From positions 1 to 28,259 of IMG/VR virus record IMGVR_UViG_3300025052_000105: a stretch of DNA of 28,259 nt; one strand, 5' to 3'. The DNA comes from a virus. The notes under the pieces were generated by a model. The model was not told where the DNA came from. It did not search any database and saw nothing but the letters and a program-made list of their open reading frames with translations. Position 1 is the first letter of the stretch. Each line of letters begins with the position of its first letter. The position numbers and the translations under genes were made by a program. This document shows, in pieces, positions 6,878 through 27,055 of this stretch.

Positions 6878-7196
6878 TGCTGACATACACTTATCTTCTA
6901 TTATAGTAGATAAGAATATCCCTGCTATTAAGTTATCTATTAATAGCGGAGGGTGTTCTGGATTTAACTATGACTGGCAGTTAGTATCTGAAGAAGAGTT
7001 AATAAACTTTACAGATGATTTCACTATGGATTTAGATACTGGTAAACTTATCATAGATAATCTTTCTCTTATGTATTTAACAGGAACAGTAGTTGATTAT
7101 AAGAAAGATATTTTTGGACAAAGACTAATGATAGAAAATCCAAATGTTAATTCCATGTGTGGATGCGGAGAAAGTTTCTCTGTGAAAGATACTTAA
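6858..7196 (+). CDS. A-type iron-sulfur cluster carrier (HesB/IscA/ErpA family)
   Basis: A 112-residue protein, the usual family length. ATG 6858 fits because the family typically begins with 'I-x-L-T-x-x-A', read here as MIKLTDNADIHL. An upstream TTG frame (6816) would add 14 unrelated residues. Seen: GGCSGFNY with Cys33 and MCGCGESF with Cys101 and Cys103, the three conserved ligands for a [2Fe-2S] or [4Fe-4S] cluster. Such proteins pass clusters to client enzymes in the cytoplasm. The AAAGGA at 6851-6856 is very close to the ATG, so initiation may be weak. It lies 2 bases before the terminase small subunit gene. The phage client is unknown. Confidence 0.9.
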   Translation: MIKLTDNADIHLSSIIVDKNIPAIKLSINSGGCSGFNYDWQLVSEEELINFTDDFTMDLDTGKLIIDNLSLMYLTGTVVDYKKDIFGQRLMIENPNVNSMCGCGESFSVKDT

Positions 7197-7198
7197 TT

Positions 7199-7636
7199 AT
7201 GCTTAATGATAAACAAGAAAAGTTTGCTCAATCTTATATCCTACACAGGAACGCTACCGAAGCAGCAAAGGCAGCAGGGTATGCGGCAGCATCTGCTTAT
7301 AATCAAGGATACCGCCTACTACAATCAGATGAAATAACTGAACGTATTAGAGAACTAGAGAATGAACTTGAAACACAAGTCAATGTGATTGAGGAACTTG
7401 AAAATCAGTATTCTTTTGCCAAGGCGAACGGACACACCAACAGTGCTATCAAAGCTCTGGAACTTTTATCTAGGGTCAGAGGTGCCAACACAGATGTCCA
7501 TACCAACATGGATGAGGAGACATTGGAGAGTGCTATTATAGGATGCTTGAATGTTCTGGGAGAAGAAAGAGTTTCTGCGTTGTTAGTGAAGTGTGACTTC
7601 TATGAAGAGGAAGAGGAAGATGATAGTCCAAGTTAG
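7199..7636 (+). CDS. terS: Terminase small subunit (Terminase_2-like)
   Basis: A 145-residue protein; ATG 7199 gives a start matching the family, whereas the longer frame from 7157 reads through the Fe-S carrier. The N-terminus LNDKQEKFAQSYI, then NATEAAKAAGY and AYNQGYRLLQSDEITERI is the classical helix-turn-helix DNA-recognition domain of Terminase_2, which selects phage DNA for packaging. Residues about 58-75 (LENELETQVNVIEELENQ) look coiled-coil, suited to ring assembly, and the C-terminus is strongly acidic (FYEEEEEDD). The large ATPase subunit, usually adjacent, is not in this window. Confidence 0.82.
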   Translation: MLNDKQEKFAQSYILHRNATEAAKAAGYAAASAYNQGYRLLQSDEITERIRELENELETQVNVIEELENQYSFAKANGHTNSAIKALELLSRVRGANTDVHTNMDEETLESAIIGCLNVLGEERVSALLVKCDFYEEEEEDDSPS

Positions 7637-8501
7637 AGACTTTATAATAGATAACGATCTACCCTTTACTTTAATTGCTGGTCCCTGTGCAATTGAGTCT
7701 GCTGACCATGCCTTGAAGATGCAAGAAGAAATTAAAGCCATTACCGACAGGCTAGGAATTAATTATATCTTTAAGTCTTCCTTTGATAAGGCGAACAGAA
7801 CATCTATTAAAGGACAACGAGGATTAGGATTAGACGATGCTGTTAAAGTTTTTGAAAGACTTAAAAAGAATACCCCTATTCTAACAGATGTTCATGAGAC
7901 ATGGCAGTGTGACATTATAAAGTATGTGGTGGATGTAGTTCAAATCCCTGCCTTCCTATGTAGACAGACTGATCTTCTCCTGGCTGCTGCTGATACTGGC
8001 TTGGTAGTCAATGTAAAGAAGGGCCAGTTCATATCACCCAATGACATGTTAAATATTATTGCCAAGATTGAGAGTGCTGGAAACAATCAGATACTTCTAA
8101 CAGAGAGAGGTACATTCTTTGGTTATGGAAATCTTGTTGTTGATTTTCGTTCTCTACCTATCATGGCTAAAACAGGATACCCAGTTGTGATGGATGTTAC
8201 CCATTCAGTTCAGAGACCTTCTGGTCAGGGAGACAGTTCAGGTGGTGAGAGAGAATTTATAGAACCTTTAGCTTGTGCTGCCATAGCAGTAGGAGTTGGT
8301 GCTATATTTATGGAGGTACATGATAACCCTGATCAGGCTATTAGTGATGGTCCTAGTCAACTTCATCTGAATGATCTTGAAAAATTACTTGTTAAATTAA
8401 AAGGTCTGGATCGAATAATAAAAGCTCCTCCAAAAAGAAAAAGGTTTAGCTTTGGATCGCTATTATTTACCGACAGAGAGCCGCTAGAGAGGGGTATCTA
8501 G
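7620..8501 (+). CDS. kdsA: KDO-8-phosphate synthase, metal-dependent type
   Basis: A 293-residue cytoplasmic enzyme that joins phosphoenolpyruvate and D-arabinose 5-phosphate into 3-deoxy-D-manno-octulosonate 8-phosphate, the precursor of the KDO sugar of LPS. ATG 7620 follows a purine-rich AGAGGAAGAGGAAG ribosome site and overlaps terS by 17 bases. Seen: AGPCAIES (20-27), FKSSFDKANRTS (51-62), FLCRQTDLLLAAA (112-124), VKKGQF (132-137), TERGTFFGYGN (161-171), DVTHSVQ (192-198), MEVHDNP (231-237), SDGPSQL (242-248). The metal ligand set Cys23, His195, Glu232, Asp243 is complete, as in the Aquifex-type enzyme and unlike E. coli, where the Cys is Asn. About 24 basic C-terminal residues (269-293) are extra. 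Confidence 0.95.
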   Translation: MIVQVRDFIIDNDLPFTLIAGPCAIESADHALKMQEEIKAITDRLGINYIFKSSFDKANRTSIKGQRGLGLDDAVKVFERLKKNTPILTDVHETWQCDIIKYVVDVVQIPAFLCRQTDLLLAAADTGLVVNVKKGQFISPNDMLNIIAKIESAGNNQILLTERGTFFGYGNLVVDFRSLPIMAKTGYPVVMDVTHSVQRPSGQGDSSGGEREFIEPLACAAIAVGVGAIFMEVHDNPDQAISDGPSQLHLNDLEKLLVKLKGLDRIIKAPPKRKRFSFGSLLFTDREPLERGI

Positions 8502-8503
8502 CC

Positions 8504-8574
8504 ATGCTCTGGGGGTACCCTACCCGACAGACCCTAATTCCTCTGTACGGGGCTTAAAACGCCACACAGAGCAT
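8504..8574. other. GC-rich nested inverted repeats between convergent operons
   Basis: The 77-base gap between kdsA and the endolysin gene holds an outer inverted repeat, ATGCTCTG at 8504-8511 with CAGAGCAT at 8567-8574. Inside it are a palindrome GGGTACCC at 8513-8520 and a hairpin CCCGACAGA (8523-8531) with TCTGTACGGG (8542-8551) containing one bulged A. By my count 44 of 80 bases in 8501-8580 are G or C, against a clearly AT-rich genome. No T-run follows on either strand, so it is not a textbook intrinsic terminator. It could be a bidirectional terminator, a structured RNA, or a DNA site for packaging, replication or recombination. Confidence 0.6.
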
Positions 8575-8578
8575 TTAG

Positions 8579-8956
8579 CTATTTATAGCTCCATATCCAA
8601 GGTCTGGGATGGATATTAGTATTATCCATTGTATCTAGATGTAAGAACCTCCCCTTATGTGGACCCTTCTGTGATACCCCTATACCAGTAAAGCCATGAT
8701 CCATAGATAATTTAATTAATCTATAGGCTGCTTTACCACTAACCAGAACATCAACAGCTTTTCCATACAGGTGAGGAGAACTTTTTGCTCCACCAATAAC
8801 TTGGTTGTAAGATAAGTGTCTGTACCCAGAGCTTATAACCATTGGCTCGTTAAACTCTTTGCGAAGACGAACCAGCTTATTCATGAAGTCTTCGTTCATA
8901 TCACATTCATCTGTACCCCCGCACTTTAACTCGTCAGTACTAAAGTATTCCCACAT
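8579..8956 (-). CDS. Endolysin, peptidase M15-type (L-Ala/D-Ala peptidase fold)
   Basis: A 125-residue protein without signal peptide, so a holin or similar is needed for access to the wall. Seen: SSGYRHLSYN at 42-51, SPHLYGKAVDV at 60-70 (zinc ligands His62 and Asp69), and GRFLHLDT at 102-109 (His106). These are the conserved zinc site of Peptidase_M15_3, enzymes that cleave peptide cross-links of peptidoglycan. ATG 8954-8956 is the only clear start. It is the last gene of the minus-strand operon and lies 2 bases downstream of the one-TM protein gene, so the two likely form a lysis pair. Confidence 0.87.
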   Translation of the reverse strand: MWEYFSTDELKCGGTDECDMNEDFMNKLVRLRKEFNEPMVISSGYRHLSYNQVIGGAKSSPHLYGKAVDVLVSGKAAYRLIKLSMDHGFTGIGVSQKGPHKGRFLHLDTMDNTNIHPRPWIWSYK

Positions 8957-21387: not shown

Positions 21388-23985
21388 TTATCTTGCTGTA
21401 GCTGGTGCCACGCCACCACCAAATGTACCACCATGACCACCAAATGGATTTTCTGCCCAAGCCATTACAGAATACGTTACTCCATCATCATTCACACTTC
21501 CAGATGTTTGCCGAATTTTAAACCCATTACTTAATATATCCATATCTGTTTGATCAGCCTGATGAACAGTAGAACCCCATATAGTAGCCTGTGTGGAAGC
21601 AAGGTTATATTTATCTACGGTTATATCTATTTGCTTTAAAGAACTAGCACTATTCTGTGTAACCCATATTACGGAAGGTTTAAAATCTGTTATTATTAAA
21701 GGACCATCAGCATCACCATTTCCAATATAGGTTGTTTGTACAGAAAACCCTTCTACAGAATGAAATGCAATAAATTGAAAAGTTTCTCCATCAACTGAAT
21801 TACTTGTTCCTGCCGTAAAAACAGCATCAGTTGGAGCAGTATTATACCACCAATTTGCACTTGTTGATGGAGTAGTTCCTGGTTGATAGAAAGCCTTTGT
21901 CCATCCCAGCCCATTTGTCATACTATAGACATTCCATTCCGTTCCTTGTGTAAGATTAGCCAGAATTATCCATTCAGGAGCCGAATCAAGACCATGCCCA
22001 ACAGTTACAGCAGAACCATTTCCAGTATAAGTACCTAACGAAATCCCAGCATCGGTGTTTGCCGAAACTGTTGATGCTACTGTTGCCCCCGCACTAGTTG
22101 AAAATGTTAAAGCAACGTCATTACTCAATGATTGAGAGGAAGATAAGACAAGATTATTTTGGTCTGATAAAGATGCAACCGTAACAGTTCCACTAATCCC
22201 CGTACCCGCAACATACATTCCTGCCACGATTGTGCCTGAATTACCATCCACCACTAAAGTGGTTGTGCTGCTTATAGCCCCATTTACATTAGCGGTTGCT
22301 ACAGAATGTGCAGACCCTGTCGTTCCATCTGTATAACCAACCCATGAACTAAACTTTTCACTACTATCGTTCCAACCATTAGCACCTGAACCTAATGTAA
22401 ACGCATTAGAATCTCCCAATGATGTTACTGAATTAGCATTCGTGTTCTCACCATCATACGCACCGGCTGTTACATATTTAGTAGCAGTACGAATAATATT
22501 ATGTATATAAGGATAATCTGCGGCATCACGGTTCTTGATAAAGACAATATCACTTGAGGTAAGATCAGAATTACCAGTTAAAGTTTCGGTATGGGCAGAA
22601 CCAGTACCAGTATAGGCATGAGGCTGAACATGAACAGAACCATCAACAATCGTCGGAACGGCAAGATTGGTTGTACAAATATCAATGTGATCTGTACTTG
22701 GTGTTTTCGTGTATGAAGCCTGACCAAAGTTGAGTGTAACTGTTCTACTGCTGTTGCCATATAATCCAATACAAGGAATAAATCCATGTGTGTTAGAGAT
22801 ACCAGTTGATGTTGTTTCAACGCTCCCACCATTTTTGTACCATTTTATGGTCTGTGCGGAGTAATCTAGCTCACAGGTAATGACATCGCCACCAGTCCAC
22901 GTTGCCCCCTGAGAGGTAGTACTGACATTCAAATCATATCGTTCCTGATTATCAGACCAAACGTGACTCTTGGCGGCTGGCGTACCGGAACGTGCATCAT
23001 CCTGCGTGTACGGATGATCATCACGAAGAAATCCAATATAGGCATGACTGGCTAAAGTTCCTGTCCAGGTTGCTTCAAAAATCCATTTCCCAGACGTAAT
23101 CATTTGCGACCCACGATACAAAAGCCAAGAGGTGGTGACTGGAAGGGCATACAGATTCCCATCACCCAAGCCAAAACTAGATCCAGCAGGTGTAAGCCCG
23201 ATTGAGGAGAGGGTGGAATAATTATTCGTTGGCGTATCTGTCATCTGATCAGCAGTAGCTAATCCATCGGAATCAGTAAAATCATTATTCTTTCCAGAAA
23301 CATCGTTACCAAAATCACTATCAACTGCAAAGTCCAGCCAAACCCCGTTATCCCCAAAAGTCGCTGAAGAAGCATCCTTGGGTCGCCAAACCCCGTTGCT
23401 ATCAAATTCTGCGCTGTAAGGTGTTGAACTACTGTTACCATCACAATACAAGAAATTAGAAATGTACCCATCATAATAAGCCGCTGGTGAGTTGTTTGAT
23501 CCTATATTAAAATTTGTAGCAGTTCCTAAGCCCATAGCTTGGTTTTGACTAGGATAGGTCGCAGTATCAAAAGCCGTTACTGCAACACCATTTATTAATA
23601 ATCCCATAGAACTGGCACTTGGGGTTGATGGTGTAGTATCCAGATGTAGCGTAAGATGATACCAAGCATGAGGGTCTCTAAAGACCTGAGTAGTATGTAG
23701 TCTGAATAAGTAGCTACTTGTAAAATAGAAAATATTTAATTTATCATCTGCACCAAACGCTATCTGAAATGAATTGCTTTCGACTGAAAATATATATCTT
23801 TCTGTTGCCAAAAGACCACGCTTAAACCAGAACTCAATCTGTGAAATTTTATCACTTGTTCCTGCACCAAGATAGGTCTTGGATAAGGTAGCACTGTCAT
23901 CATCATTGAACCGGCATGAATAATCAACTTCATAGCCACCTGCTGAGATTGACGCTGCTCCCATTAATAAATTATTACTAAACAT
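21388..23985 (-). CDS. Tail fibre/adhesin with LamG-like and SPRY-like domains
   Basis: An 865-residue protein. It opens MFSNNLLMGAASISAGGYEV and CRFNDDDSATLSKTY, a common start of marine phage adhesins. Residues about 25-185 look like a concanavalin A/LamG jelly roll (EFWFKRGL, WYHLTLHLDTT, GLLINGVAV, DGYISNFLYCDG). Residues about 290-425 look like SPRY/B30.2 (SGKWIFEATW, YIGFLRD, VITCELDYSAQTIKWYKNG, VTLNFGQ). Residues about 569-634 are an apparent inserted module, and the C-terminus (from about 645, with YSVMAWAENPFGG) matches a DUF7483-like end. It probably binds host surface sugars. The start overlaps the upstream fibre stop as TAATG. Confidence 0.78.
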   Translation of the reverse strand: MFSNNLLMGAASISAGGYEVDYSCRFNDDDSATLSKTYLGAGTSDKISQIEFWFKRGLLATERYIFSVESNSFQIAFGADDKLNIFYFTSSYLFRLHTTQVFRDPHAWYHLTLHLDTTPSTPSASSMGLLINGVAVTAFDTATYPSQNQAMGLGTATNFNIGSNNSPAAYYDGYISNFLYCDGNSSSTPYSAEFDSNGVWRPKDASSATFGDNGVWLDFAVDSDFGNDVSGKNNDFTDSDGLATADQMTDTPTNNYSTLSSIGLTPAGSSFGLGDGNLYALPVTTSWLLYRGSQMITSGKWIFEATWTGTLASHAYIGFLRDDHPYTQDDARSGTPAAKSHVWSDNQERYDLNVSTTSQGATWTGGDVITCELDYSAQTIKWYKNGGSVETTSTGISNTHGFIPCIGLYGNSSRTVTLNFGQASYTKTPSTDHIDICTTNLAVPTIVDGSVHVQPHAYTGTGSAHTETLTGNSDLTSSDIVFIKNRDAADYPYIHNIIRTATKYVTAGAYDGENTNANSVTSLGDSNAFTLGSGANGWNDSSEKFSSWVGYTDGTTGSAHSVATANVNGAISSTTTLVVDGNSGTIVAGMYVAGTGISGTVTVASLSDQNNLVLSSSQSLSNDVALTFSTSAGATVASTVSANTDAGISLGTYTGNGSAVTVGHGLDSAPEWIILANLTQGTEWNVYSMTNGLGWTKAFYQPGTTPSTSANWWYNTAPTDAVFTAGTSNSVDGETFQFIAFHSVEGFSVQTTYIGNGDADGPLIITDFKPSVIWVTQNSASSLKQIDITVDKYNLASTQATIWGSTVHQADQTDMDILSNGFKIRQTSGSVNDDGVTYSVMAWAENPFGGHGGTFGGGVAPATAR

Positions 23986-26591
23986 TAACTATATTCCTGT
24001 GATAAGATTGCTTGTATATTCTCACCTGTATTATCGCTAGAAATAGAAGCAATAATATAATCTAATCTATCTACAGATCCATTAGAAGTTGAGAAGGTAG
24101 GATCAGTACCGGCTGGAAACTTCCAACAAGCATTCCAAGATAGTGTTCCACTACCTCCTGACTGTATAAAGAAGACACTTCCTGTTTGCCCTACTCTACA
24201 ATTGGTAGGTCTTGCCATTGTATGGGCTGCTGTAACTGTAGTTAAGAAATTCTGTCCTGTGGTAAAATTAAGTGAAACAGAAGCAATTCCATTAATTGCT
24301 GTAGTATGCACAGAAGCTGCTGCTGATTTAGATAAAGCAAATGTTCCAGCTACTGATGTATTACCACTAACTCTTACAGTTCCAAGAAAACCAGAGTTAC
24401 CTGTTATCGTAGCAGTACTTAAAAGATTAACAGCACCTCCCACACTTAATGTAGATGCTAAACTAACAGCACCTGTTATCGTAGCAGTACTTAAAAGATT
24501 AACAGCACCTCCCACACTTAATGTAGAAGCAAGACTAACGGCTCCTGCTACTGTGACAGTACCTCCAATATTAACATTTCCTGACACAGAGACATCGTCC
24601 TTAAATGTACCTATTCCTACTACAGTAACTGTACTTCCAAGTTGAGTAGCTCCTGCTACTGTAACTGTACTAAGAAGATTAGTAGCTCCACCTACACTTA
24701 GAGTAGACGCAAGACTAACTGCACCTGCTACAGTAACAGTACTAAGAAGATTAGTAGCACCGCCTACACTTAAAGTAGATGCAAGGCTAACTGCTCCAGC
24801 TACTGTAACAGTACTAAGAAGATTAGCAGCACCTCCCACACTTAATGTAGATGCTAAACTAACTGCTCCTGCTACTGTAACAGTACCTCCAATATTAACA
24901 TTTCCTGATACTGATACGTCATCTTTAAATGTACCTATTCCTACTACGGTAACAGTACTCCCAAGTTGTGTTGCTCCAGCTACAGTAACAGTGCTAAGAA
25001 GATTAGTAGCTCCCCCTACACTTAGAGTAGATGCAAGGCTCACAGCACCTGCTACTGTAACAGTACCTCCAACACCCAGATTAGCAGTAAGAGTCGTATT
25101 ACCAACAATAGTAACTGTACCACCTACATAAAGATTTCCACCTATTGTCGCATTATTAACAGATATATTTCCTGTAATGTTTGCAGGAACATTAGAAAGA
25201 TTAGATCCATCACCATAAAATGCTGAAGCACATACTTTAGCATTAGCAGCTTGTACATTGGCTCCAGCAATAGTTACTGTACCACCTATAGATACATTAC
25301 CAGCAGCATCAATATTACCACTTACTGAAACACTATCTTCAAAGATAGCTTTTCCTGCTACTGTAACAGTACTTCCTAAATGAGTAGCACCACCCACACT
25401 CAATGTAGAAGCAAGACTAACGGCTCCTGCTATTGTAACAGTACCACCAATATTAACATTACCAGATACAGATACATCGTCCTTAAATGTAGCAGCGCCT
25501 ACTGCTGTAACTGTGCTTCCAAGTTGTGTAGCTCCTGCTACTGTAACTGTACTAAGAAGATTAGTAGCTCCTCCTACACTTAAAGTAGATGCTAGACTAA
25601 CTGCACCTGCTACAGTAACAGTACCACTAAGATTAACATTACCAGATACAGAAACATCGTCTTTAAATGTAGCAGCACCTACAACATTTAAAGGTCCACT
25701 AACTGAAACACTTCCTCCTACATTAATATATCCTGATACTGAAATATTAGTAGCAATACCTAATTCTGCTTCTACATTAGTAAGATTAGAACCATCACCA
25801 TAAAAAGAAGAAGCACAAACTTTAAATCCTGCATCAGTACAACTTGCACGAATATTACCTGCAACAAAAAGATTAGCATTAGAATCACTAGAACCAATAG
25901 AAACAGCACTTCCAAAAGTAATTGCACCTGTACCAATTAATGTACCACCTATTGAAGTATTTCCTGCAATATTAACATTACCAGATATAGAAACTTCATT
26001 GTTAAATTCTGTCTTTGCCTTGAAAGTACCAGTACCTGTAACTAAAAGAGTACCACCTACTGAAACATTTTCACTTGCATTAATTGATCCAGTTACAGAT
26101 AAACCACTTTTAAATACACCAGCACCGGAAACAGAAAGAGTAGATTTAAGATGGGTTGCTCCAGTAATCGTTACAGTACCACCTACCGAAATATTCCCTG
26201 CCGTATCAATATTACCACTAACAGAAGCGGCTCCTTTAATAACAACATTACCACCAAAATTACCTGTATTAGCTACAGTAATAGAACTAACTGAAATATC
26301 TCCACCAACGGAAGCAGTAATACCAGTCAGATTAGACCCATCACCATAATAAGCAGAGGCACATACCGTATCATAAACAAGTAAACTTCCACTAACTGAA
26401 GCATTTCCTATAATACCAATATTACCAGAAACAATAACCCCTCCAGTTCCTATATTTAAAGCACTGGCAGTACCATCTCCAGACTGAACATTAGTAATAG
26501 ATGTTTTTACTCCGGTATTTGTAGTACTGGAATTAACCTGTAAAAGCTGCTTATATGTTCCTGATATAAGCTTTCCTGTTAAATCTGTCAT
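23985..26591 (-). CDS. Repeat-built tail fibre protein
   Basis: ATG 26589-26591 forms ATGA with the upstream stop, so it is preferred over TTG 26603; the product is 868 residues. After MTDLTGKLISGTYKQLLQV the protein is almost entirely 12-residue beta repeats of the form T-V-T-V-A-G-A-V-S-L-A-S and T-L-S-V-G-G-A-T-N-L-L-S, with interspersed KDDVSVSGNVNIGG units. This suggests a trimeric beta-helix shaft. Three copies of the VCAS-x-(Y/F)YGDGSNL module break the shaft. The C-terminal ~80 residues are shared with the fibre at 19557. It is rich in Ala, Gly, Ser, Val and Thr and nearly lacks Trp. A role as host-contact shaft is inferred. Confidence 0.8.
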   Translation of the reverse strand: MTDLTGKLISGTYKQLLQVNSSTTNTGVKTSITNVQSGDGTASALNIGTGGVIVSGNIGIIGNASVSGSLLVYDTVCASAYYGDGSNLTGITASVGGDISVSSITVANTGNFGGNVVIKGAASVSGNIDTAGNISVGGTVTITGATHLKSTLSVSGAGVFKSGLSVTGSINASENVSVGGTLLVTGTGTFKAKTEFNNEVSISGNVNIAGNTSIGGTLIGTGAITFGSAVSIGSSDSNANLFVAGNIRASCTDAGFKVCASSFYGDGSNLTNVEAELGIATNISVSGYINVGGSVSVSGPLNVVGAATFKDDVSVSGNVNLSGTVTVAGAVSLASTLSVGGATNLLSTVTVAGATQLGSTVTAVGAATFKDDVSVSGNVNIGGTVTIAGAVSLASTLSVGGATHLGSTVTVAGKAIFEDSVSVSGNIDAAGNVSIGGTVTIAGANVQAANAKVCASAFYGDGSNLSNVPANITGNISVNNATIGGNLYVGGTVTIVGNTTLTANLGVGGTVTVAGAVSLASTLSVGGATNLLSTVTVAGATQLGSTVTVVGIGTFKDDVSVSGNVNIGGTVTVAGAVSLASTLSVGGAANLLSTVTVAGAVSLASTLSVGGATNLLSTVTVAGAVSLASTLSVGGATNLLSTVTVAGATQLGSTVTVVGIGTFKDDVSVSGNVNIGGTVTVAGAVSLASTLSVGGAVNLLSTATITGAVSLASTLSVGGAVNLLSTATITGNSGFLGTVRVSGNTSVAGTFALSKSAAASVHTTAINGIASVSLNFTTGQNFLTTVTAAHTMARPTNCRVGQTGSVFFIQSGGSGTLSWNACWKFPAGTDPTFSTSNGSVDRLDYIIASISSDNTGENIQAILSQEYS
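24399..25680 (-). repeat. 72-base/36-base tandem repeats inside the fibre gene
   Basis: The DNA carries near-identical units of 72 bases, each made of two 36-base halves (12 residues each). A clear pair is at 24399-24470 and 24471-24542, sharing CCTGTTATCGTAGCAGTACT and AACAGCACCTCCCACACTTA. Longer blocks containing CATCGTCCTTAAATGTA recur around 24590, 24918, 25468 and 25660 with small differences. Such repeats can expand or contract by slippage or recombination. Confidence 0.85.
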
Positions 26592-27055
26592 ATTAAATTC
26601 CAACTTATACTAACATCATCATATTGTGTTATATGTTTTGTTTCTTCTAAAGTTGTAGGATCAACTGTTATCCAACTTGTTATATTAGGAAATGATCCTT
26701 CTAAAAGACCAAATTTTTCTGGTCGTGTAGTTTGTCTAGTTTGTTTTCCATAATTCGGATTGGGTACAAGCTGATCATCATCATTTTCAATCTCCTCATC
26801 TAAATCAATTTTAATATACATAGTACCATCATCCCATAATACTCCCCTTCCACCATCATCCGGTCTTGGATTTCTAATGGCAGGATCATCTTTTACATTC
26901 GGTACTTTGTTTTGAGGACTGTTTTTTAAATCATATTGTCCTTCAAAATCTTGTGGACAAACCAATAATCCATAACTATTAAGTCTCATTACTCTGTGTG
27001 GATACACAAAACCACAAGTATCACAAACAGCTAATGCTTTTTTTTGAGTTGCCAT
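26588..27055 (-). CDS. Small zinc-ribbon-like structural protein
   Basis: A 155-residue protein. N-terminal AVCDTCGFVYPHRVMRLNSY and LLVCPQDFEGQYD give a CxxC followed by a further cysteine, a partial zinc-ribbon; the family I associate with this ('C-D-x-C-G-F-x-Y ... G-L-x-V-C-x-x-C') usually has a fourth cysteine, here replaced by Asp-context residues (CPQDF). The later part is acidic and beta-rich. It lies between the gp4-like gene and the repeat fibre, so a minor virion role is likely. The start has AGGAG about 12 bases upstream. Confidence 0.65.
   Translation of the reverse strand: MATQKKALAVCDTCGFVYPHRVMRLNSYGLLVCPQDFEGQYDLKNSPQNKVPNVKDDPAIRNPRPDDGGRGVLWDDGTMYIKIDLDEEIENDDDQLVPNPNYGKQTRQTTRPEKFGLLEGSFPNITSWITVDPTTLEETKHITQYDDVSISWNLI

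Follow-up and report, generated by a model that had tools for sequence, protein, structure and literature searches.

The closest described counterparts of the locus analysed here, a junction of two converging operons in a 28-kb virus record (IMGVR_UViG_3300025052_000105, marine virus; 28,259 nucleotides, hereafter the window), are the bidirectional Rho-independent terminators of convergent bacterial genes. These share with it the location at convergent gene ends and the both-strand T-run hairpins, which are seen in the relatives L107, L162, and L060. Unlike them, the element described below has two separate outward hairpins that share a sequence-conserved core, which persists in copies with no predictable terminator and, in one clade, is encoded inside terS. 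In Rickettsia, an alphaproteobacterium, convergent gene pairs frequently show read-through or ends that are not site-specific (PMC3027695).

Phage pac and cos sites, located in or beside terS, offer a further comparison. The element is likewise present in single copy and lies inside or adjoining terS in several lineages, but in the L115 lineage it is far from terS, contigs continue across it, and no evidence of a cut was found. HMO-2011-type marine podoviruses, such as the roseophages CRP-3 and CRP-212, have a similar two-operon layout and B12-dependent ribonucleotide reductases 70-72% identical to that of the window; they differ in having another terS, and the first 50 kb of CRP-3 and CRP-212 contain no match to the element model. 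Among annotated or cultured phage records, the junction, terS, and the element had no match, except for one at chance level.

The operon junction and its inverted repeats

The rightward block of the window comprises ribonucleotide reductase, glycosyltransferase-like and methyltransferase-like ORFs, holin, an Fe-S protein, terS, and kdsA, and it meets a leftward block consisting of an M15 peptidase and then structural genes. The point of convergence lies between the kdsA stop at 8501 (+) and the peptidase stop at 8579 (-), and the initial annotation was right that both operons end at the patch 8504-8574. The features discussed below are, in window coordinates:

7190-7636, + strand: terS, terminase small subunit (Terminase_2; PF03592, 59.8 bits), with a truncated C-terminal tail that ends CDFYEEEEEDDSPS
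7593-8501, + strand: kdsA, KDO-8-phosphate synthase (NCBIfam NF003543 equivalog, residues 10-277 of 302), between terS and the former 3′ tail of terS
8469-8571, + strand: conserved operon-junction element, 103 alignment columns, near-gapless in relatives (window z 6.0 outside the searched motif, own lineage left out)
8474-8511, unstranded: alternative left stem P1, CAGAG 8474-8478 / CTCTG 8507-8511, its register matching that of terS-clade relatives
8480-8493, + strand: core A position by alignment, GCGTCACTGAGKGG in relatives, degenerate GCCGCTAGAGAGGG in the window
8504-8511/8567-8574, 8513-8520, and 8523-8531/8542-8551, unstranded: outer stem, palindrome, and inner hairpin of the initial annotation, present, pairing not conserved
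8511-8525, + strand: core B position by alignment, GGACCCTACCTACCC in relatives, GGGGGTACCCTACCC in the window
8541-8571, + strand: family 3′ hairpin, CTCTGT 8541-8546 / ACAGAG 8566-8571, a + strand terminator stem in relatives, covariation not shown
8542-8559, + strand: core C position by alignment and relatives' terS, TCTGTATGASGCTTAAAA in relatives, where it overlaps the terS stop codon, TCTGTACGGGGCTTAAAA in the window
8579-8956, - strand: M15 peptidase / endolysin (PF08291, 67.2 bits), last gene of the converging - operon

The inverted repeats reported for the patch are all present: the 8-bp outer stem is exact (ATGCTCTG at 8504-8511 and CAGAGCAT at 8567-8574), the 8-base palindrome GGGTACCC lies at 8513-8520, and the inner hairpin has nine pairs and one bulge (CCCG-ACAGA, 8523-8531, with TCTGT-(A)-CGGG, 8542-8551). 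The patch is GC-rich, as had been said, at 55% versus a mean of 37%, and 59 of 5638 segments of 71 nt in the same 28-kb stretch reach this value. There is indeed no T-run beside the stems, and the site is absent from the list of a standard terminator scan. No tRNA or tmRNA was found.

A 91-nt fold of the patch beats 200 shuffles on the + strand (z -3.6) and, more mildly, on the - strand (z -2.4). After GC correction it ranks 15 of 5638 on the + strand and 29 of 5638 on the - strand, and equally good folds occur in two coding segments, at about 5556 and 6891-6906; the patch belongs to the few best folds of the window and is not unique. Alternative folds lie within 3 kcal/mol of one another (-38.8 for the best, -38.1 with the outer and inner stems of the initial annotation, -35.8 for a family-like combination of P1 and the 3′ hairpin) because CAGAG and CTCTG are each present twice, giving four arms.

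Elsewhere in the window, an 872-aa ORF on the - strand (23985-26603) is built from many imperfect repeats (SVSGNVNIGGTVT...) and probably encodes a repetitive protein of fibre or structural type.

A junction element in marine phage lineages

Judged by alignment, the window patch is one copy of a DNA element of about 100 bp that is common to several uncultured marine phage lineages. Pattern scans and protein-based relatives together yielded 33 distinct copies, which align across 103 columns with almost no indels (rows L104, L105, L050, and L210 with single-base shifts). At least seven lineages are represented among them, namely the terS-coding clade, L051/L130/L139, L161/L163, L107/L162, L109/L114, L112/L118, and L104/L105, and most close relatives recovered through protein search contain the element.

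The invariance of core C is partly an artefact of its use as search key; in the homology test, the core C columns were removed and each lineage was scored against a profile built without that lineage. The copies scored z 3.0-7.5, values reached by at most 4 of 3000 own-shuffles, the exception being L008 (z 2.7, 23 of 3000). Of 17 phage contigs, several of them chosen without the motif, 16 contained a single copy according to a sequence-only model; two contigs gave an additional weak match on the reverse strand, overlapping the first. The element is placed between convergent genes in the window clade and in the L107, L109, and L112 lineages; in the L104 group it sits in a divergent region, ahead of the probable terS, and not between convergent genes.

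A weaker, more diverged match (15 bits) at 4657-4733 of L054, about 150 nt past terS, lies where the element would be expected and may represent an outlying copy. In a SAR116 single-cell genome, an element-like stretch (AAGAGCCACTGAGGGGTGTTA...CTGTGTGAGGC; L210 6757-6824) lies between a cytochrome c′ gene and the next ORF. We regard this chromosomal copy as chance: its leave-one-out score is -8.6 versus 29-91 for phage copies, 34 of 3000 own-shuffles reach its score, and 135 other genomes of the SAR116 order gave no convincing element match. The other matches in genome contigs show no visible relation, about 17 of them being one orthologous Stutzerimonas/Pseudomonas stretch. A short ORF starting from core C (MTLK/MRLK...) was also discarded; its length and sequence vary, and several copies contain stop codons.

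The terS tail and the kdsA insertion

The TerS proteins of relatives are about 40 aa longer than that of the window and end in ...SSV*. In relatives found through the peptidase, the DNA past the peptidase stop is homologous to window positions 8518-8578, and in several of them the same DNA encodes, on the opposite strand, the 3′ end of terS with this ending. DNA homology between the window and its relatives breaks off at about 7600-7623 and returns at about 8518, with kdsA in the gap. A relic terS frame at 8467-8576 (LPTESR*RGVSSHALGVPYPTDPNSSVRG...) is in register with that of L008 (ESLIQSDSEGTQHPSYLPDPNSSV*); it is interrupted by a stop codon and has lost the TerS stop. The homology gap filled by kdsA and the relic frame therefore identify the window element as an orphaned 3′ end of terS, and in the window clade the element is normally the coding 3′ end of that gene. 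The last 24 or so residues of kdsA extend beyond the KdsA model and reach into the element. Only three viral relatives of kdsA were found, all distant (55-57% identity).

Synonymous variation was compared between the element-overlapping tail and the upstream part of 16 non-redundant terS genes. The synonymous-codon difference was 0.13 in the tail versus 0.41 upstream, a threefold stronger conservation, whereas the amino-acid difference went the opposite way (0.48 versus 0.20); 2.3% of contiguous blocks were as low as the tail, with element-overlapping blocks counted among them. Since synonymous codons are conserved while amino acids vary more, the nucleotide sequence is under selection, a pattern that fits a nucleotide signal lying over a loosely constrained protein tail. 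The element is a clear case of a nucleotide signal kept inside coding sequence.

Termination, packaging, and other readings of the junction

Terminators were scored as a hairpin followed by a T-rich tail, with long stems allowed; the standard scan, which takes loops of 3-8 only, omits the element sites in L107 and L161. On the strand of the leftward operon, the best intrinsic terminator of the locus lies inside the element in L139, L060, L131, L130, L161, L163, L118, L107, and L162, and in L107, L162, and L060 the second-best is also inside it, on the other strand. In L064, terminators in the element rank 1, 2, and 4 and are good on both strands. A GC-rich stem-loop directly before a T-run, which defines an intrinsic terminator, is present in L139, L060, L131, L130, L107, L161, and L163, with AACGGG...CCCGTT plus TTTTTTACT and TCTTCTG...CAGAGGA plus TTTTACTTT as examples from L060. 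Several noncoding lineages are thus predicted to have the strongest intrinsic terminators of their locus at the element, with T-runs and on both strands, and the predicted anatomy of the relatives is that of two outward terminators around a shared core.

The window copy ranks 18 (+) and 49 (-) among 85 predicted terminator sites and is not an intrinsic terminator by the same definition, as the + stem is followed only by CTATTTATA and the - strand has nothing at the stems. Strong terminators are also absent from the element in L001 and L008, both terS-coding, and in the L104 group. The bidirectional terminator proposed for the patch is therefore partly supported for the family, where several relatives have predicted outward T-run terminators on both strands, and not for the window copy, with its low ranks. 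Because T-runs are missing in the window, termination there would be weak or factor-dependent. A termination signal for a T7-type RNA polymerase was set aside because no PF00940 match was found, a weak result since the control genomes gave none either.

We consider the most likely job of the element to be ending transcription from both sides at the meeting point of the operons, with a probability of roughly 0.5. It is placed where a rightward operon (replication, metabolism, terS) and a leftward one (structure, lysis) would run into each other. In relatives, the leftward transcript would form the left hairpin and then a T-run, and the rightward transcript the right hairpin and then a T-run, so that each RNA would cross the shared core and end beyond it; the core nucleotides are under selection even when they form part of the TerS coding tail. 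For the window and the terS-coding clade, which have no T-runs, the hairpins and core motif may slow or end convergent transcription less efficiently, through a factor or through head-on collision of polymerases. In the window, kdsA has parted terS from its 3′ end, leaving the element, partly degenerate, as a noncoding spacer. The nested hairpins are one form taken by the conserved junction element in a partly degenerate copy, and a hairpin cluster without T-runs is thereby explained as a lineage-specific version; that this copy itself terminates transcription is something we infer.

The convergent sites, the top terminator ranks, the single copy, the synonymous constraint, and the homology outside the searched motif all favour a role in ending transcription. 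Against it stand the window copy, without T-runs and low in rank, the equally weak copies of L001, L008, and the L104 group, and the divergent setting of the element in the latter. Moreover, the conserved part is a linear motif and not the stems, and terminators need no conserved loop.

An alternative is that the motif is a site for a DNA-binding protein, in packaging (cos/pac) or replication, to which terminators were added in some lineages at the same junction. We find this rather doubtful as an explanation. The initial annotation's suggestion of a DNA site is supported insofar as conservation affects a nucleotide motif whose register stays fixed, even within coding sequence. The protein-site alternative is favoured by conserved linear motifs that keep their spacing without a common RNA fold, by the single copy per genome, and by a position inside or adjoining terS in several lineages. 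It also agrees with the L104 element, which lies some 100 bp ahead of a probable terS (no Pfam match) that terL follows, and with the ends of several contigs no more than about 150 nt away from the element. However, Terminase_6C TerL was matched in window-type and L104 lineages, whereas in the L115/L109 lineage terS is 16-30 kb off and Terminase_6C gave no match, which would require one site to serve different terminases; contigs of 53-60 kb also pass through the element and end elsewhere, and contig ends are expected in any case where a conserved block meets variable flanks. An attP integration site is disfavoured, as no tyrosine integrase (PF00589) was matched in 13 contigs, with positive controls. 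We hold only tentatively a broader version, in which a previously undescribed single-copy cis-element of about 100 bp, shared by at least seven uncultured marine phage lineages and under synonymous-site selection in terS, would be read by a putative host or phage factor that sets operon boundaries or starts packaging independently of classical terminators. Finding the reader of the motif would reveal the way in which an uncultured marine phage group insulates, or packages, its convergent operons.

That the window patch is instead only a terS 3′ end in decay, which kdsA has orphaned, with functionless nested hairpins arising from chance combinations of CAGAG and CTCTG, is unlikely in our view. 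The split of terS by kdsA, the relic frame with its stop codon and lost TerS stop, the degenerate cores A and C, and the unconserved pairing speak for decay, but the remainder of the copy resembles the family no less than intact copies (z 6.0), a sign of retention or of a recent insertion. That the element is a conserved structured RNA with a regulatory role, structured RNA having also been raised initially, is very improbable. Single sequences show strong local folds, left hairpins occur in several lineages, and the lineage-weighted profile has its best inverted match at the core C hairpin, with a value attained in 3 of 400 column shuffles. RNAalifold nevertheless returned no consensus pairs, Rfam had no match at gathering score, and neither the stems of the patch (140 of 500 shuffles reach their covariation) nor the 3′ hairpin covary more than shuffles; the nested pairing is not conserved in relatives, whose stems, the left hairpins included, differ in register between lineages. 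The alignment thus supports a linear motif in fixed register and not a conserved RNA fold. Two further ideas were dropped: a long-range pairing of cores A and C (AGCGTCA/TGACGCT) forms in L064, L104, and L057 and is broken in many copies, and cores A and C as inverted copies of one motif are not among the best inverted matches.

Contigs L017, L047, L057, L064, L105, and L134 end about 0-135 nt from the element, apparently more frequently than expected; these ends are either assembly breaks between the conserved block and its variable flanks or real genome ends. Small ORFs beside or inside the element (L048 4529-4846, L062 931-1263) weakly resemble UPF0102 / PD-(D/E)XK endonucleases, below curated cut-offs, and the junction resembles a hot spot of insertion, perhaps by homing-type nucleases. 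With kdsA and small nucleases entering at the same place, it would mark where marine phages gain accessory cargo.
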